From the NCBI RefSeq assembly GCF_002941025.1, contig NZ_PTJS01000001.1:3348001-3412000 (forward strand): a stretch of DNA of 64,000 nucleotides. The letters are read 5' to 3'. Source of the stretch: Streptomyces sp. QL37. GTDB taxonomy: Bacteria > Actinomycetota > Actinomycetes > Streptomycetales > Streptomycetaceae. Shown here one piece after another: positions 3,708 to 35,839 of the stretch. The notes beneath the pieces are model-generated. The model saw only the letters and a program-made list of their open reading frames with translations. It searched no databases and was not told the DNA's origin. Each line of letters starts with the position of its first letter. The stretch's first letter is position 1. The translations under genes and the position numbers were made by a program.

Positions 3708-5632
3708 GGCGGCACGGCGCTGCCCTTGCGGAGCGTGTGCCGGGCGCGGTGCAGCCGTAGGGCGAGCTGGACCTCCAGGGCGCGCACGGGCTCCTGCCAG
3801 CCCGCGCCCAGGAGATCGGTGATGCGCTCCAGCCGCCGCGAGACGGTGTTGGGGTGGACGTGCAGACTCTCGGCCGCGCGGGTGGGGCTGCTCCCGGCGG
3901 CGAAGTAGGCCTCGAGGGTGCGCACCAGCTCGGTGCACTGCTGGGTGTCGTAGTCCAGCACGGGCCCGATGGTGAACGCGATGAAGGCGACGGTGTCCGG
4001 TTGCTCGGACAGGAGCATGCCGAGAAAACCCAGCTCACGCGGTGACGCGGTGGCCCCGTCACCCCCCAGCGCGGTCAGGGCGTCCAGGCAGCGCCGCGCC
4101 TCCTGGTACGTCTGGACGATCGTCACGGCACTGGTGATCGGCCCGGCCGCACCCGCCGTCACCGGATGGCCGAGAACCGAGGACAGCTCGCCCGACACCG
4201 CGCGCGCCGCCGCCCCGGGGTCGGTGCCCGGCAGCAGCAGGACGATGCAGCCGCCGTCCGTGGTCTTCAGACCCGAGAGCCGGTAGGCGTACGAGGACGC
4301 CCACACGACGGCCTTGCCCTGCGCCCCGCCCTCCGGGCGTGCCACCACGGCGACATGTGGCTCCGTGAGGTCGACGGCGAGTCTCCGGGCCCGCTCGGCG
4401 AGCTGTTCCGGCGTGTAGCGCGAGGAGCTGAGCAGCTCGTGGAAGAGCTGGTCGCGCATGTGCCCTTCGGCGGCCGCCGCGCTGCGCTGCACCTGCAGCT
4501 GTACGGCGGTGGCCTGGGCGACGATCCTCAGCAGCTGGGCGGTGATGTCGGTGGCCGCCTCCCGTGGCTGGAAGACGAGGGTGGCGAGGATCTCGTCCCC
4601 CGCGGCCGCGGGGCAGCACCAGAGGCCCTCGGCCGACCGGATCGGGGCCCGCTCGGTGTGCGCGTCGAGGACCGTCCTGAGCAGCTCGTCCTCGTCGAGG
4701 GCGGTGACCACGCCGGTGGCCGCCAGATCGCGGCCGGCCACGTCGCGTACGAGCAGGGTGCCGTCGAGCGCCCCGGCCGCGGCGGTGGTGAGCTCGTGCA
4801 GGTCACGGCCGCGCAGCACGAGGTCGATCAAGCGGCTCTGCGTCTCGCGGAGGTGCCGGGCCGCGGAGAAGAAGTCCATGGCGCGGGAGGAGTCGAGCTC
4901 CAGCTCGGATATCTCGTCCCTGGCCTGGGCGAGCAGCCGGGCCTTCTTGATCGCGACGGAGACCAGGTCGCCCAGCGAGGACATCTGGGTGATCTCGTCG
5001 GGCGCGAAGTGGCGCACCTTCCGGTCGGCGACGTACAGCGCCCCGAAGACGTGGTCACCGTCGTGCAGCGGCACCGACATCAGGGCCCGCAGCCCCTCGG
5101 CACGCACCACGTCGTCGATCGCCCCGGAGTGCGGGAGGCCGTCGTCGTCCAGGTAGTCGGGTGACCAGAAGGGGGTGGACTGCGACCTGGACCGGTTGCC
5201 GGGACCGCCGGTCCCCGGGATCCGGAAGCCCACGGTGATCGCGGACGCGTGCCCGTCGGCGGCCCGGACGTACGAACAGTCCTCGGCCGGATCGTGGAAG
5301 CTGATCCACGACATGTCGAGGTTGAGCAGCAGCCGGGCACGGCGGGTGATGACCTTGAGCAGCACGTCCAGCTCGTAGGGCAGGGTCAGTTCCCTCGCGG
5401 TGTCGACCAGGGCGGCGAGCCCGGCCTCGCGCTGGTGCCGGCGCGCGAAAAGACTGTGGATGTCCAGGGCGAGGCCCCTCGCCCGTTCGAGCAGCGCGGC
5501 CGATCCGGTGTCCGCGGGGTCGGGCAGCGCGGTGCGGATCACTTCCTCGAAGCGCTCCGGGGGTGCTTCCGTCGCCAGTAACTCGAACAGCCTGAACAGA
5601 GCCTCACGTACTGAATGGTCCTCGCTCGGCAA
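3683..5632 (-). CDS. GAF-domain PucR/CdaR-type transcriptional regulator
   Basis: About 649 residues. Residues 50-230 form a GAF sensor domain (VLLKVITRRARLLLNLDMSW ... LRALMSVPLHDGDHVFGALY). A middle region resembles the PucR-family linker. The last 60 residues contain the PucR helix-turn-helix, PTRAAESLHVHPNTVSRRL, followed by ITDLLG and LEVQLALRLHRA. I prefer the TTG at 5632, which has GGGAGGG about 8 bases upstream, over the in-frame ATG at 5689, whose purine run sits only 2 bases away; the longer form cannot be excluded. The gene lies between the IS701-like gene and the carrier-protein operon and is the only classical DNA-binding regulator of the island. It is therefore the best candidate for controlling it, with a small-molecule ligand in the GAF domain. 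Confidence 0.8.
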   Translation of the reverse strand: MPSEDHSVREALFRLFELLATEAPPERFEEVIRTALPDPADTGSAALLERARGLALDIHSLFARRHQREAGLAALVDTARELTLPYELDVLLKVITRRARLLLNLDMSWISFHDPAEDCSYVRAADGHASAITVGFRIPGTGGPGNRSRSQSTPFWSPDYLDDDGLPHSGAIDDVVRAEGLRALMSVPLHDGDHVFGALYVADRKVRHFAPDEITQMSSLGDLVSVAIKKARLLAQARDEISELELDSSRAMDFFSAARHLRETQSRLIDLVLRGRDLHELTTAAAGALDGTLLVRDVAGRDLAATGVVTALDEDELLRTVLDAHTERAPIRSAEGLWCCPAAAGDEILATLVFQPREAATDITAQLLRIVAQATAVQLQVQRSAAAAEGHMRDQLFHELLSSSRYTPEQLAERARRLAVDLTEPHVAVVARPEGGAQGKAVVWASSYAYRLSGLKTTDGGCIVLLLPGTDPGAAARAVSGELSSVLGHPVTAGAAGPITSAVTIVQTYQEARRCLDALTALGGDGATASPRELGFLGMLLSEQPDTVAFIAFTIGPVLDYDTQQCTELVRTLEAYFAAGSSPTRAAESLHVHPNTVSRRLERITDLLGAGWQEPVRALEVQLALRLHRARHTLRKGSAVPPHAEAPAT

Positions 5633-5825
5633 TGGTCGTCCCTCCCCCAGGGCCGCCCCAGGGTCTCCGGGACGCAGGACCGCGCACATCCTTCCGTGAA
5701 CCTAAAACCTGCGAGCTGGATCGGTCAACCACCCCAGGGTGGAAGTCAAGCCCCTGGTCAGAGCGGGTCGAAGGCTCCCCTCACGTGACACGATCCGCGA
5801 CCCGGTCCGAGGCACAAGTCCGGTG

Positions 5826-6752
5826 CTACGCGCGATCGTTGCGGTGCGGCCGGGCATCGCCCTCCTGACTCGTGCCGCCGGGCGCCCGGAACACCTCCGT
5901 CATGTCGATGCCGACCTCGCAGAGGGCCGCGAGGGCGGCCCGCCCCGCCCCGTCGGCCTTCAGCAGCGTGTCCCCGCTCGGCACCCCGTGGGAGACGGCC
6001 TGTTCCAGCACTTCCACGGACACCGCCTGCGCGGTCCGCCAGCCCACCAGCGCGGTCAGCCGGTGCGGCAGGGGCGCCGTCCACACGAGGCGGGGCGGCC
6101 GCGCACCGGCGGCGCGGAGCACCCGCCACCACTCGTCGCCCAGCCGCTCCTCACGGGTCCGGAACGCCAGCCTGGCGACCGCCAGGGCGGCTGTGCCCCG
6201 ATGCCGCAGGGCCTCCGGCGACGCGAGGCGGGCCAGCCGGGCGTCGACCTCCGCGTCGATCTCCCCGACCGGCACCGAGATGACGGCGGCCAGTCTGCGC
6301 AGGCTCAGCCCCGCGGCGAGCGCCAGCTCCAGTCCGCTGAAGTACGCGTCCATGGCCTCGACACAGCCGTCCAGCGACCGGACGGGCGAGACGTCCACGC
6401 CGAGCCCGGCGGCGACCGTCGCGGTGACCGTCCGGAGGCCGGGGCCGTCGGGCGCGATACGCACCAGCAGGTTGGGCCTGTCCACCGCGCGGCTCGTGTC
6501 GCGGTCCACGGCAGCGGAGACCAGGCCCGCGTCGCCGTCCGCCGCCTCGTACACCCACAGGAGCGCGTCGCAGGCGTCGCGTACGGCGTCGGCGGTCCCC
6601 GAGGCGGAGAGAAGACCGCTGAAGTTCCCGTCCGCGGCGAACCTGCGCAGCCGGGCCGGTGCGAGGGGCGCCGACGCGTCTTCCGCCAGCCAGCCGGCCA
6701 CGCCTTCGGCGGCCAGTTGCCGCAACAGCGCGGCTGCCAATGGGCTGATCAT
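5826..6752 (-). CDS. Transaldolase-like protein without catalytic lysine (probable pseudoenzyme)
   Basis: A 308-residue protein starting MISPLAAALLRQLAAEGVAG, like the beginning of actinobacterial transaldolases. Recognisable blocks are ALLWVYEAADGDAGLVSAAV, DRPNLLVRIAPDGPGLRTV, VEAMDAYFSGLE and SVPVGEIDAEVDARL. In active transaldolases the strand corresponding to NLLVRIAPDG carries the Schiff-base Lys (IKIPAT or IKLAST). Here that position is Arg, about residue 98. The GVTSNPTIF-like and TLIFS-like segments are also degraded. The ATG at 6752 fits the family start better than the GTG at 6803. It is divergent from the carrier-protein operon. The class I aldol reaction should be impossible. It may be a relic, a regulator or a binding partner of the neighbouring transketolase; none of these is shown. 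Confidence 0.7.
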   Translation of the reverse strand: MISPLAAALLRQLAAEGVAGWLAEDASAPLAPARLRRFAADGNFSGLLSASGTADAVRDACDALLWVYEAADGDAGLVSAAVDRDTSRAVDRPNLLVRIAPDGPGLRTVTATVAAGLGVDVSPVRSLDGCVEAMDAYFSGLELALAAGLSLRRLAAVISVPVGEIDAEVDARLARLASPEALRHRGTAALAVARLAFRTREERLGDEWWRVLRAAGARPPRLVWTAPLPHRLTALVGWRTAQAVSVEVLEQAVSHGVPSGDTLLKADGAGRAALAALCEVGIDMTEVFRAPGGTSQEGDARPHRNDRA

Positions 6753-6983
6753 GGGAGCCGAGATTAGAGGAGCCCGCGCACCGCGCGACAGGATCGCCCT
6801 CACTCTCCGTCAAGTCTCCGCTCTTCCGTCAGGTCCGCCGTTCTCCGTCATTCCCGGGGCGCACAGGTGACTTATTCCGGGGCAGTTGACGGAATTCCGC
6901 CTCGCCCTTTGCCGCCCCCGCCGCCGGGACGGGATGTTCGTTGCGGTCACCGGCCCGGTGCCCGACGAGACGAGAGGACCGCG
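6753..6983. promoter_or_regulatory. Divergent region upstream of carrier-protein operon with three TCCGTCA heptamers
   Basis: The 231-bp region between the transaldolase-like gene and the operon holds three TCCGTCA heptamers at 6806-6812, 6825-6831 and 6844-6850, an exact 19-bp period. This is the same heptamer as in the 2141-2171 array. TTGACG at 6886-6891 could be a -35 box, but no good -10 follows. The operon's first ribosome binding site is GAGAGG just upstream of 6984. Confidence 0.35.
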
Positions 6984-7172
6984 ATGCCTGCAACCATTTC
7001 CGTACCGCAGTGTCTGGTGTGCGACACGGACTTCGACATCCAGGACGACTGGGAGCGGGGCGAGATAACCGAGTGCGGTGCCTGCGGGCAGGAGCACGAG
7101 ATCGTCGAGAAGGACGACGCCGTCGTACGCGTCGCCCTGGCCCCCGAGGTCGAAGAGGACTGGGGCGAGTGA
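6984..7172 (+). CDS. Amino-group carrier protein (LysW-like AmCP)
   Basis: A 62-residue acidic protein. Two CxxC pairs (C10/C13 and C31/C34) form the zinc knuckle of LysW proteins. The C-terminus is EEDWGE, the invariant tail whose terminal Glu gamma-carboxylate takes up the amino group of the substrate by an isopeptide bond. In thermophiles LysW carries alpha-aminoadipate or glutamate for lysine or arginine synthesis. Streptomyces makes lysine by the diaminopimelate route, and stand-alone LysW homologues in this genus serve secondary metabolism (the vazabitide A paradigm, where glutamate is loaded). It is the first gene of the operon, with a GAGAGG site 7 bases before the ATG, and its stop overlaps the GTG of the ligase gene (GTGA). 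The identification is secure from size, zinc site and tail. Confidence 0.93.
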   Translation: MPATISVPQCLVCDTDFDIQDDWERGEITECGACGQEHEIVEKDDAVVRVALAPEVEEDWGE

Positions 7173-8050
7173 CCGACGCCCCCGAGGTACTGCTCTCGGT
7201 CACCATGCTGCGGCCGGACGAGAAGCTCCTCCTCCACGCACTGCGCGAAGAGGGACTGAACGTCCGGCCGCTGCTGGCGGAGGACCTCGCCGAGGTGGTG
7301 TCGGGGGTGACGCCCCCGCCCGCCTTCGCGGTGATCCGCAACCTGTCCCACCGCGAGGCGGTCGGGGTCGCCCGACGACTCGAATTCACCGGCGTGACGG
7401 CCCTCAACCGTGCCACCACCATCGAGACCTGCAACGACAAGGGCCTGCAGGCCCTGCTGTTCGCCCGGCACGGCATTCCGCACCCGTTGTCCCGTCACGC
7501 CTTCAGCTACGACCAGGTGCGCGAGACCGTCGCGGAACTCGGAACGCCGGCCGTCGTCAAGCCCGTCAGCGGTTCCTGGGGGCGCGGTGTCACCAAGGTG
7601 ACCGGCACCGACTCGCTCGAAGCGTGGGTGGGCGGCCGTGAATCGGCGGACGCCGCCGGCAAGCTGTTCCCCGTCCTGGTGCAGCGTTACGTCGACAAGC
7701 CCGGCCACGACCTCCGGGTCGTGGTGGTGGGGCGCACCCCCGTGGTCGCCATCCAGCGGGTCTCGGACAACTGGCGCACCAACACGCACCTGGGCGCCCG
7801 GATCGAACGCCTGGACATCACCGGCCCGATCGAGAAGCTCTGTGCGCAGGTCGTCGACGCACTGGGCGAGGGCTTCTACGGAATCGATCTCATCGAGGAC
7901 CTCTCCACCGGCGAGCTCCTGGTCCTGGAAGTGAACGCGAATCCCGACTTCGCCCGTTCCTCCGCCGTACACGGCGTGAACGTGGCAGGCCATCTGGCCG
8001 CGTACATCGCGGAGCTGTGCAGCGACACCACGCTTCCCGCGGCCGCGTGA
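7169..8050 (+). CDS. LysX-type ATP-grasp ligase loading the amino-group carrier protein
   Basis: A 293-residue RimK-like ATP-grasp protein. It opens LLSVTMLRPDEKLLLHALRE, has the ATP-binding strand TPAVVKPVSGSWGRGVTKV, and ends with the metal-binding block LLVLEVNANPDFARSSAVHG. LysX/ArgX enzymes join the alpha-amino group of their substrate to the terminal Glu of LysW using ATP. Here the expected substrate is glutamate, because a C5 unit plus the C2 unit from the downstream transketolase gives a C7 product. The GTG start at 7169 overlaps the stop of the carrier gene by 4 bases, implying coupled translation of enzyme and partner. The length matches LysX (about 280 residues). Substrate choice is inferred from the pathway, not from a specificity motif. 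Confidence 0.9.
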   Translation: MTDAPEVLLSVTMLRPDEKLLLHALREEGLNVRPLLAEDLAEVVSGVTPPPAFAVIRNLSHREAVGVARRLEFTGVTALNRATTIETCNDKGLQALLFARHGIPHPLSRHAFSYDQVRETVAELGTPAVVKPVSGSWGRGVTKVTGTDSLEAWVGGRESADAAGKLFPVLVQRYVDKPGHDLRVVVVGRTPVVAIQRVSDNWRTNTHLGARIERLDITGPIEKLCAQVVDALGEGFYGIDLIEDLSTGELLVLEVNANPDFARSSAVHGVNVAGHLAAYIAELCSDTTLPAAA

Positions 8051-8070
8051 CACGAAGGAAGACAGATCTC

Positions 8071-8700
8071 ATGGAACTGTTCGACACAGCCACCGTGCTC
8101 ACCCGGGTGATGACCTCCGGTGTGGTCATGAGCATCGAGAAGAGCGATCGCGAACTGCCCGGCCTGGACCGCCTGCTGACCAAGCGGACCGGGCGCGCCC
8201 ACGCGGTGCTCGTGAACAGCCGCAGCGCGGCCGTGCACGCGGCGCTCGCCGGTCAGGGCATCGGACACGGAGACACCGTCCACGTGCCCGAACTGTCCCC
8301 CAAGGACGCGGCCTTCCTGCACTGGCTCGGGGTCGGCGTGGCGGAGGACCCGGGTCCGGCCGTCTTCGAGCACATCGCGCTGGACGCCGGCCGGGCACAC
8401 CTGCTCGACGAGCAGGCACGGGCCCTGCGGGCACCGGCTCTGGTCGTCGACCTCACCGGTCTCGGCTTCGGCCCCGCCGCCGCCGTACTGACCGACGACC
8501 GCACCGTCTGGGCACGCGCCGAGCGGCTCAAGATCTTCGGCGCCTACGACCTGCGCACGATGTGGACGCAGGAGGAGGCCGAGGCGGACCTGATCCCCGG
8601 CGTGCAGTTCAACTACCGGCTGAGCCCGCTCGTAGCGGCCTGCGCCCGCATGGCCCTCAGCCAGGCCGTGCGTCCCCTCACCACCGGAGCCCCGTCATGA
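8071..8700 (+). CDS. Shortened DegT/DnrJ-like protein lacking the PLP lysine
   Basis: A 209-residue protein. Its N-terminal half resembles the cofactor-domain start of DegT/DnrJ/EryC1 aminotransferases (AHAVLVNSRSAAVHAALAGQ, then GIGHGDTVHVPELSPKDAAF). A C-terminal stretch, PGVQFNYRLSPLVAACARMA, matches the GYNYRMxxxQAAxG region of that family. The segment between, which should carry the PLP-binding Lys (xxKN/SxxxxGEGG), is missing; the protein is about half normal length. A GAAGGAAG site precedes the ATG at 8071, and the stop overlaps the start of the full aminotransferase (ATGA). An intact frame, a good ribosome site and coupling to the full-length paralogue suggest a real non-catalytic partner subunit rather than a decaying copy, but that is inference. 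Confidence 0.65.
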   Translation: MELFDTATVLTRVMTSGVVMSIEKSDRELPGLDRLLTKRTGRAHAVLVNSRSAAVHAALAGQGIGHGDTVHVPELSPKDAAFLHWLGVGVAEDPGPAVFEHIALDAGRAHLLDEQARALRAPALVVDLTGLGFGPAAAVLTDDRTVWARAERLKIFGAYDLRTMWTQEEAEADLIPGVQFNYRLSPLVAACARMALSQAVRPLTTGAPS

Positions 8701-10016
8701 TCACCGACTTTCCCTCCGCCCCGCTTCCGCTGCCCTCCGCCGAGGAGCTCACATCGGAGCTGGCCGCCCTCGGCGGCGAGGCGCTGATCCCCAAGGAGCT
8801 GCGCCGCACGCTCTTCCCGGTCATCACCAAGGAGGACGTCTTCAACCTGATGCTCTCCCAGCGGAGAGCGCCCGAGAAGGTCGTCGCCGACTTCGCCGAG
8901 GCCTACCGCTCCTACGTGGGCGCCGAGTACGCGCTGCCCACCGCGAGCGGCACCTCCAGCCTGCACCTGGCCCTCGTCGGCGCCGGCGTGCGGCCCGGCG
9001 ACGAGGTCATCGTCCCGGCGTTCACCTTCATCGCCACCGCGCAGGCCGTCGTCGCCGCCCACGCCGTCCCGGTGTTCGTCGACATCGACCCGCGGACCTA
9101 CTGCATGGACCCCGCGGCGGCGGCGGCAGCGGTCACGGACCGGACCCGCGCCATCATGCCCGTACACGTGCACGGCCTTCCGGCCGACGTGCCCGCGCTG
9201 CGCGCCCTCGCCGACAAGCACGGCATCGCGCTCGTCGAGGACGCCTCGCACGCCCACTCGGCCGGCATCGGCGGCCGCGTCGCCGGTTCGTTCGGCGACG
9301 CCGCCGGACAGAGCCTGATGGCCGACAAGAACTTCCCGCTCGGCGGCGAGGGCGGTATCGCCTTCTTCGCGACCGAGGAGGCCCACCGGCGCGCGTCCGA
9401 CTACACCCTGCGCCACGGCATCGACTACGAGATGTCGTGGGTCGCCGCCGCGTTCGGACACAGCCAGCTGGAGCGCCTGCCGTACTACGACGAGGTGCGG
9501 GCCCGTAACGCACGCCTGATCGCGGACACGATCGACGCCACCGGATTCTTCCGGGCGCCGTACGTCCCCGAGGGCCACGTCCACGCCTACAACATGTACC
9601 GGATCACCCTGCTGCCGGAGGCCATCGGCCTCGACGACCTCCCGGTGTGGGCGGTCAAGGAGGCGGTGCACGAACTGCTCGTCGCCGAGGGCGTACCCGC
9701 GCGCGAGTGGCAGAACACCCCGATCCCCTGCCACCTGCCGTTCGTGCACCGTACGGGCTTCGGCAACGGCTATCCCTTCACGCTCAACCCGGGTGCGGTG
9801 CGCGACCACAGGCCCGAGGACTTCCCGGCGACCCTCGCCATGCTCGACTCGACCCTGGTCCTCTGCCGCGAGCTGCGCTCACCGGTCGAGTACGAGCGGG
9901 CGCTGCGCTACGCGGACGCCTTCACCAAGGTCGCCCGGCGCCCGGACGCCATCCGCAAGCTCGTCGAGGCCGGCGACTACCGCCGTCCCTATGAGAAGGC
10001 GGCCCGCCTTGGCTGA
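8697..10016 (+). CDS. DegT/DnrJ/EryC1/StrS-type PLP aminotransferase
   Basis: A 439-residue fold-type I aminotransferase. Family signatures are ALPTASGTSSLHLALVGAGV, DEVIVPAFTFIATAQAVVAA, IMPVHVHGLPADVPALRALA, VEDASHAHSAG and SLMADKNFPLGGEGGIAFFA, with the internal-aldimine Lys at about residue 211. In the vazabitide-type pathway an aminotransferase of this kind converts the ketol made by transketolase into the 6-amino compound while it is still bound to the carrier protein. That is the proposed role here. The ATG overlaps the stop of the shortened paralogue by ATGA, and the 3' end overlaps the TTG of the reductase gene. The residues around the acceptor site were not assessed, so regiochemistry is assumed from context. 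Confidence 0.88.
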   Translation: MITDFPSAPLPLPSAEELTSELAALGGEALIPKELRRTLFPVITKEDVFNLMLSQRRAPEKVVADFAEAYRSYVGAEYALPTASGTSSLHLALVGAGVRPGDEVIVPAFTFIATAQAVVAAHAVPVFVDIDPRTYCMDPAAAAAAVTDRTRAIMPVHVHGLPADVPALRALADKHGIALVEDASHAHSAGIGGRVAGSFGDAAGQSLMADKNFPLGGEGGIAFFATEEAHRRASDYTLRHGIDYEMSWVAAAFGHSQLERLPYYDEVRARNARLIADTIDATGFFRAPYVPEGHVHAYNMYRITLLPEAIGLDDLPVWAVKEAVHELLVAEGVPAREWQNTPIPCHLPFVHRTGFGNGYPFTLNPGAVRDHRPEDFPATLAMLDSTLVLCRELRSPVEYERALRYADAFTKVARRPDAIRKLVEAGDYRRPYEKAARLG

Positions 10017-11082
10017 GCAGGCGACCTTCCAGAGCACGTTCTCCGACGGGAAGATCCGCGTCGCCGTCATCGGCGCGAGCGGCTACACCGGCGGCGAAGT
10101 CATCCGGCTGCTCCTCAACCACCCCCACGTGGAGCTCGCCTTCCTGTCCGCCGAGCGCGGTGCGGGCAAGCAGGTGGGCGCCGTCCACCCGTGGCTGCGC
10201 AACCATCCTCGGCTCGCCGGAATCAAGCTGCGCCCGCTGGACCAGCTGGGCGAGGTCGACGTGGCGATCACCTGCCTGCCCACCGGCGCCCTGCCCGAGC
10301 GGCTCCCGCAGATCGCGGACCGCGCGAAATACGTCCTCAACCTGGCCGGGGACTTCCGGCTGGACAACCCGCAGGAGCTGGCGAAGCACTACCCGGCGTC
10401 GGTGGCCCACCCGCCGGCCGACACCTTCGACTACTTCGTACCGGACCTGTCGGAGACCCTGCCGGAGGGCAGGTTCATCAACCTGCCCGGCTGCATGGCC
10501 GTCGCGACGGTCTACGCGCTGTACCCCCTCTTCGCCGAGGGCCTCGCCGAACAGGACGTGGTGGTCGACGCGAAGACCGGCTCCACCGGCGGCGGCCGCG
10601 GCGGCTCCGAGCAGCCGGCCGAGCGCTCCGGGAACTTCCGGGTCCACAAGCTGCACGGGCACCGCCATCTGCCTGAGATCACCCAGGCGTTGAAGCACTT
10701 CACGGGCACGGCACCCGAGCTGCGCTTCTCCACGCACAGCCTGGACGTGCCGCGCGGCATCCTGATCTCGGCGTACAGCCGGCTCAAGGACGGTGTCAGC
10801 CCGCTCGACGTCAAGCGCGCCTACGCCAAGGCGTACACGGGCAAGGCGTTCGTGCGGGTGCGGCCGTCGCCGAAGGCCCCGCAGGACTTCCCGATGCTCA
10901 AGGCCGTCGTCGGCTCGAACATCGCCGAGGTCGCGGTCTCCGTCGAGGGCGACCAGTGCGTGTCCATCTCCGCCATCGACAATCTCATCAAGGGCGCGGC
11001 CGGCCAGGCCGTCCAGGCCATGAACCTGGCCCTCGGCTACACCGAGTGGACCGGTCTCAGCTGTGCGGCGGTGGCGCCGTGA
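10009..11082 (+). CDS. LysY/ArgC-type acyl-phosphate reductase for carrier-bound glutamate
   Basis: A 357-residue homologue of N-acetyl-gamma-glutamyl-phosphate reductase (ArgC) and LysY. The NADP-binding motif is VAVIGASGYTGGEVIRLLL. The catalytic Cys is at about residue 162 in NLPGCMAVAT. VHKLHGHRHLPEITQALKHF contains the conserved His region. It should reduce the carrier-bound glutamyl-5-phosphate to the semialdehyde that transketolase then extends. The start is the TTG at 10009, supported by GAAGG 9 bases upstream and by the family N-terminus beginning shortly after; it overlaps the aminotransferase stop by 8 bases. Streptomyces has a separate arginine-cluster argC, and the gene partners here argue for the secondary-metabolic role. 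Confidence 0.9.
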   Translation: MAEQATFQSTFSDGKIRVAVIGASGYTGGEVIRLLLNHPHVELAFLSAERGAGKQVGAVHPWLRNHPRLAGIKLRPLDQLGEVDVAITCLPTGALPERLPQIADRAKYVLNLAGDFRLDNPQELAKHYPASVAHPPADTFDYFVPDLSETLPEGRFINLPGCMAVATVYALYPLFAEGLAEQDVVVDAKTGSTGGGRGGSEQPAERSGNFRVHKLHGHRHLPEITQALKHFTGTAPELRFSTHSLDVPRGILISAYSRLKDGVSPLDVKRAYAKAYTGKAFVRVRPSPKAPQDFPMLKAVVGSNIAEVAVSVEGDQCVSISAIDNLIKGAAGQAVQAMNLALGYTEWTGLSCAAVAP

Positions 11083-12932
11083 CCCGCCCCCTGTACGTGG
11101 TCAAGGTCGGCAGCGCCACCCTCGACCGCGGCACCGTCCACACCGAACTGGCGGCGCTCGTCGCCCGCGGCGCCCGTCTGCTGCTGGTCGCGGGAGGCGC
11201 CGTCGGCATCGAGCGGCACTACGCCGCCATCGGCCGGCCGATGCCCGAACTGCGGCTCGCCAACGGCGACGCGGTGCGCTACTGCCCGCCCGCCGAGATG
11301 ACGCACCTGGTCGACGCCTACGAGCGCGTCACCCTGCCCGCCGTCGAGGACGGCCTGCGCGCACTCGGTCTCGACGTGTTCACCGCGGTCGCCGCACGCG
11401 GCGGCCTGGTCACCGGCCGCGCCAACCGGCCGCTGAAGACGGTGGGTCCCGAGGGCCGCACCCGGGTGGTCCGCGACCACCGGGCGGGCGTACCGGTCGA
11501 GGCGGACACCGCCCGGCTGACGGCGCTGCTGGAGGCGTACGACGTGGTGTGCCTCTCCGCACCGGTACGTGACCGGGACGGCGGCGCCCCGCTGAACGTG
11601 GACGCCGACGTGCTCGCCGCGGCCCTGTCCAACGCGCTCGGCGCCGACCACCTGCGCCTGGTCACCGGCACCGCGGGACTGCTCACCGACCCCTCGGACC
11701 CGGCCTCGACGCTGCCCCACGCGCACCAGGGCGAAGCGGCCCGGTACGCGGGCGGCAGGATGCGCCAGAAGGTGCGCGCCGCGGAGATGGCGCTGGAGGG
11801 CGGCAGCGCCGACATCGCCGTCACCGGCCCGCACACGCTGGCCGACCCGGCCGGCTGGACCCGCTTCTGGCGCGGCAGCGCCCCGGAGACGGACCTGACG
11901 CTGCTCGGCCGTGCGGTGGGGGTCCCCTCGGTCTCCGGGGACGAGCACGAACTGGCCGCCTACCTCGTCGAGTGGTGCACCGAGCGGGGCATCGACGCCA
12001 AGATCGACGCCGCCGGGAACCTGGTGGCCACCAAGGGCGCCGGGGACCGGGGCCTGCTGCTGCTCGGCCACCTGGACACCGTCCCGCACCACTGGCCCGC
12101 CGAGTGGCGCGGGGGCGAACTGCACGGCCGGGGCAGCGTGGACGCCAAGGGCAGCCTGGCGGCCTTCCTGGAGGTGCTGGCCACCGCCGAGGTCCCCGCC
12201 GACGGCAGGCTGCGGGTGGTGGGCGCGGTCGAGGAGGAGATCTCCTCCTCGAAGGGCGCCTTCCACGCCCGCGACCACTATCCGGCCGACGCCGTCGTCA
12301 TCGGCGAGCCCAGTGGCAGCGACAAGCTGACGCTCGGCTACTACGGCCTGTTCAAGCTGCGGGTCACGGCCCGGGTCGACAGCGGTCACTCGGCCGGCAT
12401 GGACGCCGTCTCCGCGCCCGACACGCTGATCCGTGCCGTCGAGTCCATCAGGGCCTCGGTGCTGGAGCAGGCTCCGGACGCCCTCAGCGCCCTCATCGAC
12501 GTCCGCAACGAGACCGGCCGGGAGCGCCACCGTGCCGTCGGCATCCTCAACTTCCGGGTACCGCCGGGCGCCGACCTCGACGCCCTGCGCACGGCCGCCC
12601 TCTCGCACGGCGACGACGCCGTCGAGATCACGGTGGAGCGGGCCACCCCCGGCCACAGCGGGGGCCGCACGAGCTCCCTGGTGAAGGTCTTCACCCGCGC
12701 CTTCGGCCGGGCCGGCATCCGGCCGAGGTTCGTGGTCAAGAAGGGCACCTCCGACATGAACACCCTCGCCACCACCTGGCGCGGGGTGCCGATGGTCGCG
12801 TACGGCCCCGGCGACTCCGCGCTCGACCACACCGACGAGGAGCGCATCGGCGCCGAGGAGTACCGCGCCGCGCGGGCGCTCCTGGCCGACGCTGTGGCCC
12901 GCTGGTTCGCCCTGCCGGAAGGGAGCCGGTGA
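11079..12932 (+). CDS. LysZ-LysK fusion: carrier-protein amino-acid kinase plus M20-type releasing peptidase
   Basis: A 617-residue fusion. Residues 1 to about 265 are an amino-acid kinase like LysZ/ArgB: VVKVGSATL at the start, LLLVAGGAVGIERHY for phosphate binding, GRANRPLKTV, LNVDADVLAAALSNAL, and the family end motif GGRMRQKVRAAEMALEGG. Residues 270-617 are an M20 metallopeptidase like LysK: LLLLGHLDTVP (His about 330), GRGSVDAKG (Asp about 352), VVGAVEEEISSS (Glu-Glu about 385), KKGTSDMNTL and LDHTDEE. The first half phosphorylates carrier-bound glutamate; the second half cleaves the finished amino acid from the carrier. These steps are usually separate proteins. The GTG at 11079 overlaps the reductase stop (GTGA) and the stop overlaps the next ATG. 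Confidence 0.9.
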   Translation: MTRPLYVVKVGSATLDRGTVHTELAALVARGARLLLVAGGAVGIERHYAAIGRPMPELRLANGDAVRYCPPAEMTHLVDAYERVTLPAVEDGLRALGLDVFTAVAARGGLVTGRANRPLKTVGPEGRTRVVRDHRAGVPVEADTARLTALLEAYDVVCLSAPVRDRDGGAPLNVDADVLAAALSNALGADHLRLVTGTAGLLTDPSDPASTLPHAHQGEAARYAGGRMRQKVRAAEMALEGGSADIAVTGPHTLADPAGWTRFWRGSAPETDLTLLGRAVGVPSVSGDEHELAAYLVEWCTERGIDAKIDAAGNLVATKGAGDRGLLLLGHLDTVPHHWPAEWRGGELHGRGSVDAKGSLAAFLEVLATAEVPADGRLRVVGAVEEEISSSKGAFHARDHYPADAVVIGEPSGSDKLTLGYYGLFKLRVTARVDSGHSAGMDAVSAPDTLIRAVESIRASVLEQAPDALSALIDVRNETGRERHRAVGILNFRVPPGADLDALRTAALSHGDDAVEITVERATPGHSGGRTSSLVKVFTRAFGRAGIRPRFVVKKGTSDMNTLATTWRGVPMVAYGPGDSALDHTDEERIGAEEYRAARALLADAVARWFALPEGSR

Positions 12933-13762
12933 TGACCGTGCTGACCGATGTCCTGGAACCCGTCGACGGCGCCCTCGCCGCCGAACGGACCCTGCTGGCC
13001 GGCCGGGCACTGGAGGCCCGCAGGCTCGTCGTCGACATGGCGGCGAGTCCGCGTGGCTGCCATCTCGGCGGCAGCCTGTCCGTGCTGGACATCCTGATCG
13101 CGGCGCTGCACCGCGCCTCGTCCGGGGACGGCACCGAGGTGGTCCTCAGCAAGGGCCACGCCGCCGCGGGGCTGTACGCGGCGCTGTACGTGAACGGCAC
13201 CCTGCCCGAGAACCCGGCGCCGCTGTACGGCATGGCCGGGCATCCGTACACGGGCCATCCCGGCCCCAAGGTCCCCGGTGTGCGGTTCCCGACCGGGAGC
13301 CTCGGACACGGTGTGCCGTACGCCGCCGGCTGGGCGATGTCCCGCAGGCTCGGCCGGAAGCCGGGTCTCGGCATCGCCGTGACGGGCGACGGCGAGTTGC
13401 AGGAAGGCCTCGTCTGGGAGACCTGCCAGGTGGCGGCCGCACAGCGGCTGGGCAACTTCGTGCTGGTCGTGGACCGCAACGGCGGCCAGAACGACGGCAT
13501 GGTCGCGGACGTCTCGCCCCTGCCGCGGCTCGCCGAGCGCTTCGCCGCCTTCGGATTCGAGACGGCCGAGGTGGACGGGCACGATCTCACCGCCCTCACC
13601 GAGGCGCTGTCCGGCGACCGTTCGGGCGCCACCCGGCCGCTCGCGGTCGTCGCCGACACGGTGAAGGGCAAGGGCGTGCCCGCCGTGGAGGGCAAGGCGG
13701 CCTCCCACTACGTCACCATCGACGCGGCCCGCGCCGCCAAGTGGAAGCGAGCGATCCGATGA
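12932..13762 (+). CDS. Transketolase, N-terminal (TPP-binding) subunit
   Basis: A 276-residue protein corresponding to the thiamin-diphosphate domain of transketolase: GCHLGGSLSVLDILIAAL, VVLSKGHAAAGLYAALYVNG, RFPTGSLGHGVPYAAGWAMS, and the metal/TPP motif VTGDGELQEGLVWET continuing to VDRNGG. Split two-gene transketolases are common in actinobacteria and in natural-product clusters. In the vazabitide-type route such a pair moves a two-carbon ketol unit onto the carrier-bound glutamate semialdehyde, giving a C7 skeleton. The start overlaps the fusion-gene stop (TGATG) and is preceded by GGAAGGGAG. It must pair with the next gene for activity. Confidence 0.92.
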   Translation: MTVLTDVLEPVDGALAAERTLLAGRALEARRLVVDMAASPRGCHLGGSLSVLDILIAALHRASSGDGTEVVLSKGHAAAGLYAALYVNGTLPENPAPLYGMAGHPYTGHPGPKVPGVRFPTGSLGHGVPYAAGWAMSRRLGRKPGLGIAVTGDGELQEGLVWETCQVAAAQRLGNFVLVVDRNGGQNDGMVADVSPLPRLAERFAAFGFETAEVDGHDLTALTEALSGDRSGATRPLAVVADTVKGKGVPAVEGKAASHYVTIDAARAAKWKRAIR

Positions 13763-14706
13763 CGGCGGCGATCACGGAGCCCCGCCCGGCACTCCCGGGC
13801 CGGGACGCCTACCGCGACGAGCTCACCAGGATCGCCGAGGAGGACCCCTGGGTGGTCTGCCTGGAGGCGGACCTCGGCGGCAAGAACCATCCTTTCCAAC
13901 GGTCCCATCCCGACCGGTTCTTCAACCTGGGCATCGCCGAGGGCGCCATGGTCGACATGGCCGCCGGGCTGGCGGTGGGCGGCTACCGGCCGTTCCTCTC
14001 CACCTTCGCGCCGTTCGCGGCGCTCAGGGCGGCTGAGAGCCTCAAGCTGACACTGGGCTACCTGAACGCCGGGGTCACCGTCGTCGCACCGTACGCCGGT
14101 GTCTCCGGGGCCTGGTTCGGGACGACGCACCACTGCCTGGAGGACCTGGCCGTCCTGCGCAGCGTGCCCGGCGTGACCATCGCGGCGCCGTACGGCGAGG
14201 CCGAGATGCGGGCGGTCGTACGGGCCGCGGCCCGGTCGGGGAAGCCGCACTACATCCGCACCGGCCGCAACGCGGCATACACCTCGCTGCCCGGCCAGGA
14301 CGGCGAACTCCCCCTGGTGGCATGGGACTCCACCGGTACGAGCGGTGAACCCTGCCTGGTCTCCGTGGGCGAGGAGGGCACCCGCCTCGCTCTCGAAGCA
14401 CGGGAGCGGCACCCGGAGCTCGCCCACGCCCACCTCGTGTACCTGGACCACGACAACCTGACCCGGGTGGCCGCCGAACTGGCCGGGAGCCACAGCCGGT
14501 TCGTGGTCGTCGAGGAGCACCGGCGCGAGGGCGGTGTCGCCGAGGCCCTGGCGCTGCTGATGCCCCGGTGCGAGGTCGTGGGTGTGAACGCGGGCCATTC
14601 CTGGCCGGCCGAGGGCGGCGACCACCACGAGGTGCTGGCCCGGCTCGGATTCGATCTGCCCGCCGTCCTCTCCGCCGCCGCCGAACTGCGCGGGCCTGAT
14701 CACTAG
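13759..14706 (+). CDS. Transketolase, C-terminal (pyrimidine-binding) subunit
   Basis: A 315-residue protein with the transketolase pyrimidine-binding and C-terminal domains. FFNLGIAEGAMVDMAAGLAV holds the Glu that activates TPP, followed by YRPFLSTFAPFAALRAAESL, GTTHHCLEDLAVLRSVPG and KPHYIRTGR. The C-terminal domain follows with FVVVEEHRREGG. The ATG overlaps the stop of the N-terminal subunit (ATGA), as expected for a 1:1 heteromer. A 46-bp gap separates it from the ATP-grasp gene, the largest internal gap in the operon, but no terminator-like hairpin was seen there, so read-through is likely. Confidence 0.92.
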   Translation: MTAAITEPRPALPGRDAYRDELTRIAEEDPWVVCLEADLGGKNHPFQRSHPDRFFNLGIAEGAMVDMAAGLAVGGYRPFLSTFAPFAALRAAESLKLTLGYLNAGVTVVAPYAGVSGAWFGTTHHCLEDLAVLRSVPGVTIAAPYGEAEMRAVVRAAARSGKPHYIRTGRNAAYTSLPGQDGELPLVAWDSTGTSGEPCLVSVGEEGTRLALEARERHPELAHAHLVYLDHDNLTRVAAELAGSHSRFVVVEEHRREGGVAEALALLMPRCEVVGVNAGHSWPAEGGDHHEVLARLGFDLPAVLSAAAELRGPDH

Positions 14707-14752
14707 GCCGCCCCCGAACTCTCCGAACCCCCTTCGAAACCAAGGACTTCTC

Positions 14753-16006
14753 ATGCACATCCTCATGGTCGAATGCAACCCGAACGGCATCGCCGGCATC
14801 GCCAACGCCCTGGAGCTCGGCCACGACGTCACCTTCGTCTCCGCCGACCCCGACTTCTACCTCGGTGCCTCGCCGCTGGCCGAGGCGGCCTTCGCACACG
14901 ACAAGTGCGACGTCGTCAAGAGCACCGAGGCCTTCTCCATCGACGAGCTGGAGCGGCTCGCCAAGGAGATCAACGCGCGGAAGCCCGTCCACGGCGTCAT
15001 GACCTACAGCGAGTACCACACGGTGCACGCCGCTTCGGTGGCCCGCTCGCTCGGCCTGCCCGGGATGAGTGTCGAGGGCGCCCTCAACGCCCGCCACAAG
15101 CACCGCACCCGCCTCACGCTGGAGAACACCGACGTACGCCAGCCGCGCTTCGTCTCCGTCTCGGACCCGAAGGACATGGCGGCCGCGGTCCACGAGATCG
15201 GCTTCCCCTGCGTGGTGAAGCCGTCGGACGGCACCGCCAGCCTGCACGTCCTCCTCCTCCGCGACGACCAGGAGCTCACCGACTACCTGGCCGAGCTGGC
15301 GAAGGTGGACGACTACGGCCGCGGCGTCACCCGCATCCCGGAGATCGTCGTCGAGGAGTTCATCGAGGGCGAGCTCGTCTCGGTCGAGGCATGCGTGCTG
15401 CAGAGCGGCGAGATCGTCAACCTGGGGATCACCGACCGCAACCTGAGCGGCTTCCCGTACTTCATCGAGATGGGTCTCACCTACTTCAGCGGCCACCCCC
15501 TCCAGGACGAGCTGTTCGCGATGAACGAGCAGGTGCTCAAGGGGCTGGGCGTCGACTTCGGCTTCATCCACGCCGAGTACTTCCTCGCGGCCGACGGCCC
15601 CGTCCTCTGCGAGGTGAACGGCCGGCTCACCGGTGGCATCGTGCCGCAGCTGATGGAGCTCTCCAGCGGCGTCAACCCCTACCTGGAGGTCATCCGCCAG
15701 GCCCTCGGCGAGACGCCCGAACTGCCCATCCCCGGTGATGTCATCGCGGGCGGCCACTGGTTCGGCTCGCCCGTCGACGGGGAGCTCGTCGCCATCGGCT
15801 TCGACAAGCTCAAGGGGACCCCGGGCTTCGAGGAGGCGCTGGCCTACGCCAAGCCCGGCCGCACCGTGTCCCGGCTCTCCAAGAGCAACTTCGACTGGCT
15901 CGGCCACCTCATCTACACCGGCAAGGACCGCGACGAGGCCACCGGCCGCGTCCGGGCCGCGCTCGACGACATCGACTTCACCATCAAGGTCCAGGTGGCC
16001 CGCTGA
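14753..16006 (+). CDS. ATP-grasp carboxylate-amine ligase (candidate dipeptide-forming enzyme)
   Basis: A 417-residue ATP-grasp enzyme of the L-amino-acid ligase / carbamoyl-phosphate-synthase-like group. It begins MHILMVECNPNGIAGIANAL, has the ATP-binding strand FPCVVKPSDGTASLHVLLL, and a metal site in HAEYFLAADGPVLCEVNGRL. Such stand-alone enzymes join an amino acid to a second amino acid or an amine through an acyl phosphate. In a cluster without NRPS genes, it is the natural candidate for coupling the released diamino-dihydroxy acid to another residue. The start overlaps nothing upstream, and its stop overlaps the amidohydrolase ATG (TGATG). Substrates cannot be predicted. It is clearly distinct from the LysX-type gene at 7169. 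Confidence 0.82.
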   Translation: MHILMVECNPNGIAGIANALELGHDVTFVSADPDFYLGASPLAEAAFAHDKCDVVKSTEAFSIDELERLAKEINARKPVHGVMTYSEYHTVHAASVARSLGLPGMSVEGALNARHKHRTRLTLENTDVRQPRFVSVSDPKDMAAAVHEIGFPCVVKPSDGTASLHVLLLRDDQELTDYLAELAKVDDYGRGVTRIPEIVVEEFIEGELVSVEACVLQSGEIVNLGITDRNLSGFPYFIEMGLTYFSGHPLQDELFAMNEQVLKGLGVDFGFIHAEYFLAADGPVLCEVNGRLTGGIVPQLMELSSGVNPYLEVIRQALGETPELPIPGDVIAGGHWFGSPVDGELVAIGFDKLKGTPGFEEALAYAKPGRTVSRLSKSNFDWLGHLIYTGKDRDEATGRVRAALDDIDFTIKVQVAR

Positions 16007-17316
16007 TGCGCGTCGCGATTCCGGAACTCGATCCGGCCACCCTGTACGACGTCACCGTCGACGACGGTCACTTCTCCACCGTCCGGGCCGTCGCCGAACG
16101 CGACGTGAACGACGCGGAGACCCCGGAGCTGTGGCCCGGCTTCACCGAGGCCCACGCCCACCTGGCGCTCCCGGCCAACTTCGACGACTCGCTCGACGAT
16201 CCGCGCATCTCCGCGATGCAGTACCTCTACCACGGGGTCACGCACGTCGTGGACCTGTTCGGCTTCCCGCTGGTCAAGGAGGGCTGGGAGCAGGGCAAGC
16301 GGGAGCTGGGCCTGCCCTGGCCCGAGGTGGCCCACTGCGGTTACGCCGCCACCGCGACCAAGGACATCGACGGCCACTACGGCCACGGCGTCGAGTTCCC
16401 CGCGCCGGTCTTCATGCTGAGCGTGCAGGAGGACCTCGCCACGGTGCTCGCGGCGAACAAGGCCCGTGGCGCGACCTTCCTGAAGGTCATGTACACCGAG
16501 GGCGCCGAACAGCCGGAGAGCAGCAAGCGCTTCTCCCGGCTCCCGGGCAATCTCCTCGCCCACGTACCGCGGGTGGCAGCCGAGCACGGTCTGAAGGCGG
16601 TCATCGACTGCAACACCCGCGACGAGGTGATGCAGGCCTACGCCTTCGGCTTCCGCATCTTCGCCCACCCGGTACGGGACGTCGGGCTGTCGGCGGCGGA
16701 CTGGCAGGCGCTCGAAGGCGCCCGGTTCGTGTCCACGCTCAGCGGTCTGCGCCCCATGATCATGGAGCGCGAGGACTTCCTGCGCGAGTACCAGAGGCCA
16801 GGGTTCCGTGAGACCCAGGACCTGGCCAACCTCGACTTCGTATCGAAGATCGAGGAACCGTTCGGCATCCAGTACGAGGTCCAGGACACCAGGACCGCAG
16901 CGCTGGTCAACATGCGCGACAACAGCCTGGCCGCGCTGGAGCGCGGGGCGCTGCTGATCGGCACGGACTGCGGCAACACCGGTGCGTTCCACGGCGACGC
17001 GCTCAAGGGCGAGCTGGACCTGCTGGCCGGGGACGATCTGGGCAAGCCCGGTCTGCGTGAGGCCCTGCTGCGTACGGCGACGACCACGGCCCGTGGCTTC
17101 TTCGACGAACTGTCCGGCCGCGAGCCCGGCACGGATCTCATCGCGGAGGGCAGCCCGGCCACGTTCAACCTGATCGACCCGGCCGCGGCCGGCCGGCCCC
17201 TGTCGCAGCTTCCCAGGGCCACGTACGTGCGGGGCGTGGCCGTGGACCGTACGGCGGTCGTGGCGGCCATCCAGGAACTGCGCGCCACCCCCACCCGAGG
17301 AAAGGTCACCGCATGA
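16006..17316 (+). CDS. Metal-dependent amidohydrolase-superfamily protein
   Basis: A 436-residue member of the amidohydrolase superfamily (imidazolonepropionase/prolidase-like branch). Metal and catalytic landmarks in order are WPGFTEAHAHLALP (HxH, residues about 45), a Lys in ATFLKVMYTEG (about 160, possible carboxylated Lys), KAVIDCNTRD, RIFAHPVRD (His about 220), and LLIGTDCGNTGAFHGDAL with the terminal Asp near residue 320. Such enzymes hydrolyse amide or cyclic amide bonds. Placed between a peptide-type ligase and an exporter, it could trim or mature the product or deactivate it for self-protection. One-base overlap with the ligase (TGATG) and four-base overlap with the exporter (ATGA) place it firmly in the operon. 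The exact reaction is unknown. Confidence 0.8.
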   Translation: MRVAIPELDPATLYDVTVDDGHFSTVRAVAERDVNDAETPELWPGFTEAHAHLALPANFDDSLDDPRISAMQYLYHGVTHVVDLFGFPLVKEGWEQGKRELGLPWPEVAHCGYAATATKDIDGHYGHGVEFPAPVFMLSVQEDLATVLAANKARGATFLKVMYTEGAEQPESSKRFSRLPGNLLAHVPRVAAEHGLKAVIDCNTRDEVMQAYAFGFRIFAHPVRDVGLSAADWQALEGARFVSTLSGLRPMIMEREDFLREYQRPGFRETQDLANLDFVSKIEEPFGIQYEVQDTRTAALVNMRDNSLAALERGALLIGTDCGNTGAFHGDALKGELDLLAGDDLGKPGLREALLRTATTTARGFFDELSGREPGTDLIAEGSPATFNLIDPAAAGRPLSQLPRATYVRGVAVDRTAVVAAIQELRATPTRGKVTA

Positions 17317-18599
17317 GCAGCCAGGAACGCCATGTCCTGAGCCCGCAGACCCGCAAGGTGCTGCTGGGCGTCAACTCCGGCATCGCGCTCGCCCACATCG
17401 GCAACTACATCTGGTTCCCCCACCTGATCTCGACGCTCGGCGTGGAGTACAGCGGCTTCTGGGCCGGGTTCGTGATGTTCCTGACGTACGTCGGACGGCT
17501 CAGCGCGACCTTCTTCTACGAGGGTGTCGCCGCCCGGTTCGGGACCCGCGCGAGCATCATCGCGGGCATCGCCGTGGAGGCCGTCGCGCTCGGCGGGATG
17601 GGCTTCGCGGACGGGGTGCCGTTCTACAGCCTGCTGGCCTTCTTCGTCGGCTTCGGCTCGGGGATCTCCTTCCCGGGGCTGAAGAACATCCTCGGCACGC
17701 TGCCGGAGGCGGACCGGCCCAAGGCCTTCTCCTCGTTCCAGATGTCCTGCCAGCTCGGTGTCATCGCGGGCGCCGTGATCGGCGGTCTCTTCCTCGGCTC
17801 CTCGATGACGGTCCTGTTCCTGGTGGTGTTCGTCCTGTTCGCCGGCTACTGCGCGGCGGCGGCCTCGTTCATCCCGGCCGACGCGGGCGGGCAGGCCGCC
17901 CCGGCGGCCAAGGACACCCCGCTGGTCAACGTGGCCATCCTCAAGGGCCTGCAGCTCGGCGGTGGCGGCAGCTACTTCCTGCTCTCCAGCGTCTTCTGGA
18001 TCCTGTCGATCAGCTTCCTGGTCGGCATGCCGCTGCACATGGAGGAGTTCGCCGCGGACCTGCCGGTCTCCACCCCGTTCTGGATCACCGGCCTGGCGCT
18101 CCTGGTGCTTCAGTACCCGGCCTTCCGCTACATGTCGAAGCACCTGCGGCCCGGTCAGGTCATGGGCGTCGCGTTCCTCGCGATGGCGGCGGCGTACGCC
18201 CTGTTCGGCGCCGGGCAGACCTCGGTGTGGGTGGTCGTGGGCTGCCTGGTCGTGGTCTTCGGCGACATCCTGTTCACGCCGTCCTTCGACCTCTGGGTCG
18301 CCAACCGGATGCCGGCGGACCGCCTCGCGCGGGCGATGGGCGCCATGCACTTCTTCCGCAGCTTCGGCAACATGGTCGGCACCCTCGCCGCCGGCGCGCT
18401 CTACGACCTCTCGCGCTCCACCGACATCCCGGGCCTCAACTGGTACGTCGTCGGTGCGATCGCGGTGGTCTGCGCCGCCGTCAGCTTCTCCTCCGCGAAG
18501 AAGGAGAGCGCCTCGGCAGAGAGCACACCGGCGTTCGCGAAGGCCGAGGAGCCGCCCGCCGCCGCGGAGACCCGTCAGGCGGCCGACACCACGGCCTGA
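17313..18599 (+). CDS. Major facilitator superfamily transporter (probable product exporter)
   Basis: A 428-residue membrane protein with about 12 hydrophobic helices arranged as two six-helix halves. The loop after helix 2 carries VGRLSATFFYEGVAARFGTR, a variant of the MFS Gly-x-x-x-Asp-Arg/Lys motif, and the second half shows YPAFRYMSKHLRPGQ in the matching place. The tail after residue 390 is hydrophilic and Ala/Glu-rich. It is the last gene of the operon (ATGA overlap with the amidohydrolase) and is followed by a strong hairpin at 18631-18681. Its position suggests export of, and so resistance to, the operon's product. Transport direction cannot be proven from sequence. Confidence 0.85.
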   Translation: MSSQERHVLSPQTRKVLLGVNSGIALAHIGNYIWFPHLISTLGVEYSGFWAGFVMFLTYVGRLSATFFYEGVAARFGTRASIIAGIAVEAVALGGMGFADGVPFYSLLAFFVGFGSGISFPGLKNILGTLPEADRPKAFSSFQMSCQLGVIAGAVIGGLFLGSSMTVLFLVVFVLFAGYCAAAASFIPADAGGQAAPAAKDTPLVNVAILKGLQLGGGGSYFLLSSVFWILSISFLVGMPLHMEEFAADLPVSTPFWITGLALLVLQYPAFRYMSKHLRPGQVMGVAFLAMAAAYALFGAGQTSVWVVVGCLVVVFGDILFTPSFDLWVANRMPADRLARAMGAMHFFRSFGNMVGTLAAGALYDLSRSTDIPGLNWYVVGAIAVVCAAVSFSSAKKESASAESTPAFAKAEEPPAAAETRQAADTTA

Positions 18600-35720: not shown

Positions 35721-35728
35721 GGCCCCTG

Positions 35729-35838: not shown

Positions 35839-35839
35839 T

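Follow-up and report, generated by a model that had tools for sequence, protein, structure and literature searches.

To our knowledge, amino-group carrier proteins (AmCP) are known in secondary metabolism from only a handful of Streptomyces products. The pathways of vazabitide A, azinomycin and ficellomycin proceed by way of (2S,6R)-diamino-(5R,7)-dihydroxyheptanoic acid (DADH), as set out in a review (PMC9570651), and have in common an AmCP, a LysX-type ligase that loads it, a kinase, a reductase, a split transketolase, a DegT aminotransferase and a release hydrolase. Here we analyse a 64,000-nucleotide stretch of the genome of Streptomyces sp. QL37 (NZ_PTJS01000001.1, positions 3,348,001 to 3,412,000; hereafter the window), which encodes a complete operon of eleven tightly packed genes on the forward strand at positions 6984-18599. 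It is well supported that this is an AmCP-dependent secondary-metabolite operon rather than one for lysine or arginine synthesis, and that it represents a second class of such operons, with its own aminotransferase architecture and with ligases in place of a non-ribosomal peptide synthetase (NRPS).

Several features set the operon apart from those of the vazabitide type. Its aminotransferase consists of two reciprocally degenerate subunits, its kinase and hydrolase are fused, and a module of an L-amino-acid-ligase-type enzyme (LAL), an amidohydrolase-fold enzyme (AHL) and a major facilitator superfamily (MFS) protein is found where the vazabitide-type pathways have NRPS and sulfotransferase genes. 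Its LysX signature is also unlike that of most of the 20 AmCP clusters used for contrast, whose kinship to the named pathways we infer, so that a Gly-Phe/Leu signature in the named clusters themselves is only extrapolated from them. The genes of the operon, with their matches to Pfam and NCBIfam at curated cut-offs, are as follows.

6984..7172 (+): AmCP, a LysW-like carrier of 62 residues with CxxC..CxxC and a C-terminal EEDWGE; PF21344 at 38.6 bits against a cut-off of 27; PDB 5k2m, 3vpb, 3wwl
7169..8050 (+): LysX-type carrier-loading ATP-grasp ligase; PF08443, PF22626; PDB 3vpd, 1uc8, 5k2m, 3vpb; GSWGR; signature A-R-S-S
8071..8700 (+): small DegT subunit, 209 residues; without the pyridoxal phosphate (PLP) lysine, Q-F-N181-Y-R183 retained
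8697..10016 (+): large DegT subunit, 439 residues; PF01041 at 217.8 bits; PDB 8y96 chain A; PLP lysine K211; GIDYEM, with the cross-subunit Asn lost
~10009..11082 (+): LysY/ArgC-type acyl-phosphate reductase; TIGR01850 (argC) at 292.3 bits against a cut-off of 233.6; TTG start at 10009 inferred
11079..12932 (+): LysZ-LysK fusion of an amino-acid kinase and an M20 hydrolase; PF00696, PF01546; TIGR01902 at 283.2 bits against a cut-off of 163.1; the M20 part should release the product from the carrier
12932..13762 (+): transketolase N-terminal, thiamine diphosphate-binding subunit; PF00456
13759..14706 (+): transketolase C-terminal, pyrimidine-binding subunit; PF02779
14753..16006 (+): LAL, an ATP-grasp enzyme; PF13535, PF18603 and PF18130 above cut-off; PDB 3vot
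16006..17316 (+): AHL, assigned by predicted fold
17313..18599 (+): MFS transporter, probable exporter; PF07690

Pfam models match ten of the eleven proteins, the exception being that encoded at 16006-17316. Given the inferred LysY start, neighboring genes overlap by 1-8 bases at eight of their ten joints and are separated by 20 and 46 bases at the other two; an earlier interpretation made from the letters of the window (the sequence-only reading) had described this order, from carrier to MFS protein, with overlapping starts and stops, and every gene lies where it was placed. A promoter scan found none, a terminator scan yielded three candidates against 2.5 expected, and an Rfam search gave no match.

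The DegT pair

A distinctive part of the operon is its DegT pair. The sequence-only reading had recognized the two genes as such, and both are present, although they are best read, from their sequences, as subunits of one heterooligomeric aminotransferase. Both kinds of chain in PDB entries 8y96, 8y97 and 8y98 (released 2024-12-18) are homologous to the window proteins over nearly the whole length, with the large protein matching 8y96 chain A at E 1.2e-158 and the small one the other kind of chain at E 2.1e-48. The entry 8y96 is entitled 'Crystal structure of a heterooligomeric aminotransferase from Serratia sp. ATCC 39006', and its host belongs to a different phylum.

The same picture emerges from an alignment of the collected copies, where counts are of rows rather than independent genomes, overlapping loci having been counted repeatedly. 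The PLP lysine is present in 43/43 large rows and 0/44 small rows, whereas the loop Asn is replaced by Asp in all 43 large rows and F-N-Y-R is intact in all 44 small ones; two partial rows, the large protein of locus L014 and the small protein of L017, had been dropped by length. We take this Asn to be the residue that reaches into the active site of the partner subunit. The single DegT proteins of other AmCP clusters retain both Lys and Asn (15/15 rows). Because the motif losses are reciprocal and both chain kinds of 8y96 are matched, one two-subunit enzyme is preferred and two independent aminotransferases are rejected. The simplest reading would be that a homodimer was duplicated and its copies decayed reciprocally, leaving one active site per pair. 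Among the open-licence papers listed by literature searches, none dealt with 8y96, with a heterooligomeric pair of DegT proteins or with the operon.

Occurrence and metabolic role

The homology of the operon to LysW, LysX, LysY, LysZ and LysK could also be explained by a backup route to arginine or lysine within primary metabolism, and several observations argue against this. The source genome encodes one AmCP only, which scores below the NCBIfam cut-offs for LysW (TIGR01206, 30 versus 53.2 bits; NF041070, 56.9 versus 75 bits). It also has three further argC-type genes above the family cut-off, so the LysY of the operon should be dispensable for arginine. Furthermore, the transketolase and LAL have no known place in arginine or lysine routes, and the operon class is patchily distributed, occurring in 14 of 394 genomes of the family. 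An AmCP was found at E <= 0.001 in 52 of these 394, and the best matches fall into two groups, at least 82.7 bits in 14 genomes and at most 41.9 bits in the other 38. A near-full-length small DegT protein scoring at least 299 bits occurs in the same 14, ten of which also have an AHL of at least 495 bits; one further genome shows a weak AHL match only (23.7 bits). In a phylum-wide sample of 396 genomes, the small DegT protein was found at E <= 1e-20 in the source genome alone. We consequently reject a primary role, agreeing in this with the sequence-only reading, and regard a backup route as exceedingly improbable. One of the 14 genomes, G128, has a second, low-scoring AmCP (44.5 bits), whose cluster (L046) is of the other class and contains a fused LysZ-LysK 57% identical to that of the window.

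In a scan of one genome per species, 25 loci were recovered through the AHL family; the search employed two short peptide patterns, making this number a lower bound. When compared by tblastn with the window genes, the gene order is the same in 25/25 loci, which indicates that the window arrangement is not due to chance. All 11 genes were detected in 23 loci, while in L013 and L017 the carrier and LysX genes were not detected and would fall past the edge of the stretch or right at it; the best matches to the large DegT protein in L014 and to LysX in L023 are partial. The loci come from Streptomyces, Kitasatospora, Actinorhabdospora, Sphaerimonospora, Microtetraspora and Glycomyces, and from two betaproteobacteria, Chitinimonas prasina (L012) and Chromobacterium subtsugae (L025).

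The loaded amino acid, the proposed route and the likely product

Gene content, families, motifs, the predicted fold and the conserved order are matters of observation, and from them a route can be proposed. An AmCP pathway is indicated because the AmCP gene set is complete, the carrier has an EEDWGE tail and LysX contains GSWGR. On balance, and with some reservation, we favor the view that a diamino-dihydroxy acid built on the carrier is turned by the operon into a small peptide-like metabolite. By analogy with the known AmCP pathway, the AmCP would first be loaded by LysX, its C-terminal Glu being linked to an acidic amino acid (most likely glutamate) through the alpha-amino group of the latter, after which the side-chain carboxylate would be phosphorylated by the LysZ domain and reduced to the aldehyde by LysY. 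The two-subunit transketolase would then extend the chain by a two-carbon ketol unit, which in the case of loaded glutamate leads to a 5,7-dihydroxy-6-oxo C7 chain, and the heterooligomeric aminotransferase, with K211/PLP from the large subunit and the Asn-x-Arg loop from the small one, would aminate the ketone to yield carrier-bound DADH or a stereoisomer. The LysK domain would hydrolyze the amino acid off the carrier. Judging by family membership, LAL would couple the freed amino acid to a second amino acid at the expense of ATP and the MFS protein would export the product; between these steps, the prolidase-fold AHL might trim, cyclize or otherwise process the amide, its reaction being a guess. 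The product is likely to be a dipeptide-like compound that is exported and contains a C7 (or C6) diamino-dihydroxy acid.

The identity of the loaded acid bears directly upon this route. In PMC10433800, GSWGR is described as recognizing the EDWGE tail, and the LysX signature is reported to govern the choice between glutamate and aminoadipate, being Gly-Phe in the glutamate-preferring SaArgX and Asn-Thr in the aminoadipate-preferring SaLysX. The A-R-S-S of the window departs from the glutamate-type Gly-Phe/Leu. With the position placed by eye on HMMER alignments to PDB LysX structures, A-[RK]-S-S is found in 40/40 class rows, while the two betaproteobacterial loci read A-R-S-S and W-R-S-S, for a combined [AW]-[RK]-S-S in 42/42 readable rows (overlapping loci counted repeatedly), as opposed to G-F or G-L in 13/19 LysX proteins of other AmCP clusters, the remaining 6 being unreadable by pattern. 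Among three plasmid loci, two are of the [RK]-S type (AKSS and ARSS) and the third, L067, reads S-N-S-W. The same machinery could conceivably accept a starter other than glutamate, such as aspartate or a substituted glutamate, with aspartate leading to the C6 compound 2,5-diamino-4,6-dihydroxyhexanoic acid instead of DADH. This possibility draws its strength from the uniform signature, but a haloarchaeal ArgX with an Ala-Leu signature is still glutamate-specific according to PMC10433800, LysY is argC-type above cut-off, the L067 signature deviates, and the location of the signature was itself mapped by eye. We consider a different starter rather unlikely. Aminoadipate seems an unlikely starter, since the plasmid cores of Staphylococcus and Pseudalkalibacillus have no adjacent annotated aminoadipate genes. 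On general grounds, glutamate is likely to be the acid loaded. The unusual signature nonetheless makes glutamate loading uncertain, and with it DADH, which by analogy is a plausible product of the carrier pathway. The sequence-only reading had proposed an operon for DADH or a close relative; its assignment to AmCP secondary metabolism stands, whereas its DADH component is made uncertain by the Arg/Lys-Ser signature.

The tailoring genes distinguish the operon further. LAL contains ATP-grasp_4 (59.6 bits) and LAL_C2 (40.7 bits), both above cut-off, and matches PDB 3vot (BL00235) at E 1.8e-18. This pair of domains is common to the L-amino acid ligases BL00235, BacD and DdaF, to which LAL is only distantly related, and unlike them it resides within an AmCP operon. 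A search for AHL, which scored the 7,997 candidates sharing most words, had 76 proteins among the matches listed, 52-94% identical. The term 'amidohydrolase' used in the sequence-only reading is borne out by the predicted fold and by no profile match in Pfam or NCBIfam. The model, built from 45 sequences, has a mean pLDDT of 94.4, and Foldseek with VIA-align places it among prolidases, Zn-dependent arginine and Lys/Arg carboxypeptidases, ochratoxinase and the bottromycin amidohydrolase. H50, H52, K160, H221 and D321 are conserved without exception across 45 rows. The full metal set of the prolidase/carboxypeptidase group of amidohydrolases is HxH, Lys, His, His and Asp, and we presume the AHL residues to have the corresponding roles as metal ligands. 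AHL shares the fold with incomplete retention of this set, as the position of the beta-5 His in 3feq and 3mkv corresponds, in weak sequence alignments, to D201, an Asp that is likewise invariant in the 45 rows. AHL is probably a metal enzyme acting upon the LAL-made amide.

Several findings weigh against the route as proposed. Firstly, LysX has neither a Gly-Phe nor an Asn-Thr signature. Secondly, although GSWGR occurs in 39/40 class LysX rows and 16/19 of those from other clusters, it is missing from one class row, from both betaproteobacterial LysX proteins and from both Bacillota LysX proteins. Thirdly, the EEDWGE tail, found in 41/41 class rows and 2/2 betaproteobacterial rows, is replaced by EESWGE in the carrier of a Bacillota plasmid (L067). 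Fourthly, AHL lacks the usual beta-5 metal His and may not hydrolyze amides. Lastly, an open reading frame (ORF) of the polyketide synthase (PKS) type, of ~2,400 residues, lies just downstream of the operon extension in 4 of the 25 loci (L005, L010, L018 and L021). It was identified as PKS by Pfam in L005 and L021, while those of L010 and L018 fall into one sequence family with that of L005. This suggests that the product of these four loci may exceed a dipeptide and could include amino acid-polyketide hybrids.

Two further readings concern the fate of the carrier-built acid. An aziridine or azabicyclic product akin to those of the vazabitide, azinomycin and ficellomycin pathways, formed with the help of ring-forming and assembly enzymes encoded elsewhere in the genome, would be in keeping with the shared AmCP, kinase, reductase and split transketolase. 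Nevertheless, the aminotransferase is of a different type, AHL is flanked by LAL and MFS rather than NRPS genes in 25/25 loci, and the genome lacks any PF00685 sulfotransferase (the search did not extend to further sulfotransferase families or to NRPS genes outside the window), all of which renders such a product very improbable. The called genes of the window, inspected by eye and in part with Pfam, include no evident NRPS, PKS or sulfotransferase, in accordance with the sequence-only reading on the first and last of these. Because PF00685 is absent from the genome and no NRPS was seen in the window, the end product probably differs from the azabicyclic ones.

Alternatively, the bare amino acid could itself be the product, with the ligase and amidohydrolase serving self-protection by masking and unmasking it. 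The core does recur with mutually dissimilar ligases, and in L068 it is accompanied by an amino-acid permease without a further annotated ATP-grasp gene in the stretch. Conversely, LAL occurs with AHL in 25/25 loci (albeit loci recovered through AHL), and the retention of two genes together purely for masking is a heavier assumption. We deem the bare amino acid unlikely and retain the peptide-like metabolite as the preferred product.

Variants across phyla and genomic surroundings

Gene-family clustering over 29 loci together with Pfam, with the genes of L012 read from tblastn instead, reveals the window as the minimal form among several variants of the operon. An epimerase-family (PF01370) protein is added in 13 loci, mostly together with an ABM protein (10 loci); six loci of this type have a second ATP-grasp ligase, and L025 has a different second one. 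In five loci, from S. caniscabiei, S. europaeiscabiei, S. acidiscabies and two further Streptomyces, a double-length ABC transporter follows the operon. Loci L037-L040 combine the core with another ATP-grasp ligase upstream and a family-5 solute-binding protein, and their genomes gave no AHL match. In L072, the core genes again have a different upstream ATP-grasp ligase, the stretch ending at the transketolase. An NRPS-type ORF lies ~6 kb beyond the MFS gene in L012. A second copy of an M1 aminopeptidase was noticed near the operon in L019, as were cut M1 genes in L037 and L038; self-resistance through such an enzyme was set aside, no systematic search having been made.

The core, a set of eight genes for the carrier, its loading ligase, both aminotransferase subunits, the reductase, the kinase-hydrolase fusion and both transketolase subunits, also occurs on plasmids. 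Those of Staphylococcus epidermidis (L066, NZ_CP043848.1) and Pseudalkalibacillus each combine it with ATP-grasp, MFS and NAD(P)H-oxidoreductase/flavodoxin genes of their own, while the core on a Streptomyces camelliae plasmid (L068) is joined by the amino-acid permease and a short-chain dehydrogenase/reductase, with no annotated ATP-grasp gene in the stretch besides LysX. AHL was looked for on the plasmids and not found. As a protein query, the betaproteobacterial small DegT protein retrieves many homologues from Paenibacillus and other Bacillota, given without gene context. Between types, the ligases share only 21-35% identity, whereas values reach at least 70% within the types compared and 44% between the two from Bacillota. 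Since the ligases are so dissimilar between types, the core seems, from these sequence comparisons, to have joined up with ATP-grasp ligases on more than one occasion. This exchange of ligases, the conservation of the unit across phyla and the treatment of the DegT genes as one enzyme all go beyond the sequence-only reading.

More broadly, it is conceivable that the core defines a family of AmCP-built warheads spanning Actinomycetota, Pseudomonadota and Bacillota, plasmids included, to which dissimilar ligases attach different amino acids. The resulting exported products would be masked antimetabolites of di- or tripeptide size, in most cases made with no assembly line. The acid loaded may be new as well, the LysX signature being of neither well-known kind. 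The proposal is weakened by the PKS genes that Pfam found beside some relatives and we offer it tentatively, its chances being somewhat short of even.

Trees were built from 22 rows, one for the window and one for each of the 21 loci (out of 25) in which all ten compared proteins were long enough. The branch to the two betaproteobacteria measures 1.39 substitutions/site for seven core proteins and 0.21 for LAL-AHL-MFS, with weak support for the betaproteobacterial join (79 and 80 bootstrap). This would fit either a LAL-AHL-MFS tailoring module whose transfer between phyla postdates that of the core, or one that displaced an earlier module; the alternative is that rates were unequal. In S. lydicus (L005), the LAL at 8739-9990 is 85-86% identical to that of the window, versus 68-74% in the other loci outside the window's lineage, and its gene has likely recombined.

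In a near relative, G782 (release factor 2 95% identical), synteny skips from ~1.1 kb before the window start to window position 18701, and no LysZ-LysK match at E <= 1e-80 was found elsewhere in the genome of this relative, indicating that it is without a ~20 kb block that holds the operon. A stand-alone AMP-forming ligase at the left edge or flank of the window (L069) belongs to the same block, as do the following genes.

493-2220: lysine-decarboxylase-like PLP enzyme
2337-3707: DDE-type gene
3683-5689: PucR-type regulator
5826-6803 (-): transaldolase-like gene, below the transaldolase family cut-offs

The same row of neighbors stands beside the operon in G283, and in G806 (Streptomyces sp. 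RKAG290) the decarboxylase lies ~7 kb past the operon locus, provided that contig C1 is the same record. The decarboxylase was found in 3/9 genomes, amounting to two strains (G283 and G807 give the same match), and was not found in G195, G090, G167, G318, G792 or G808; together with the AMP-forming ligase it was rejected as a partner of the core and is treated as a lineage-specific neighbor. The transaldolase-like gene was also set aside as a pathway enzyme given its sub-cut-off scores and its presence in only L002 and L003 of the 25 loci, most of which reach just ~1 kb upstream of the carrier gene. The residue that we take to be the Schiff-base lysine appears to be Arg in its product. Elsewhere in the window, the gene at 31111-32394 (+) resembles, by its translation, a binding-protein-dependent permease with a long insert between its membrane parts, and 33486-53154 is a cell-wall-glycopolymer-like region encoding several glycosyltransferase/CDP-glycerol glycerophosphotransferase proteins and an ABC exporter.

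The reciprocal decay of two enzyme copies into an apparent obligate pair provides a clean case of subunit specialization, and with eleven genes only, the whole operon could be moved into a laboratory host. Ultimately, the presence of the core in actinobacteria, two betaproteobacteria and plasmids of the Bacillota suggests that it makes a useful small molecule, which has been retained by several phyla.

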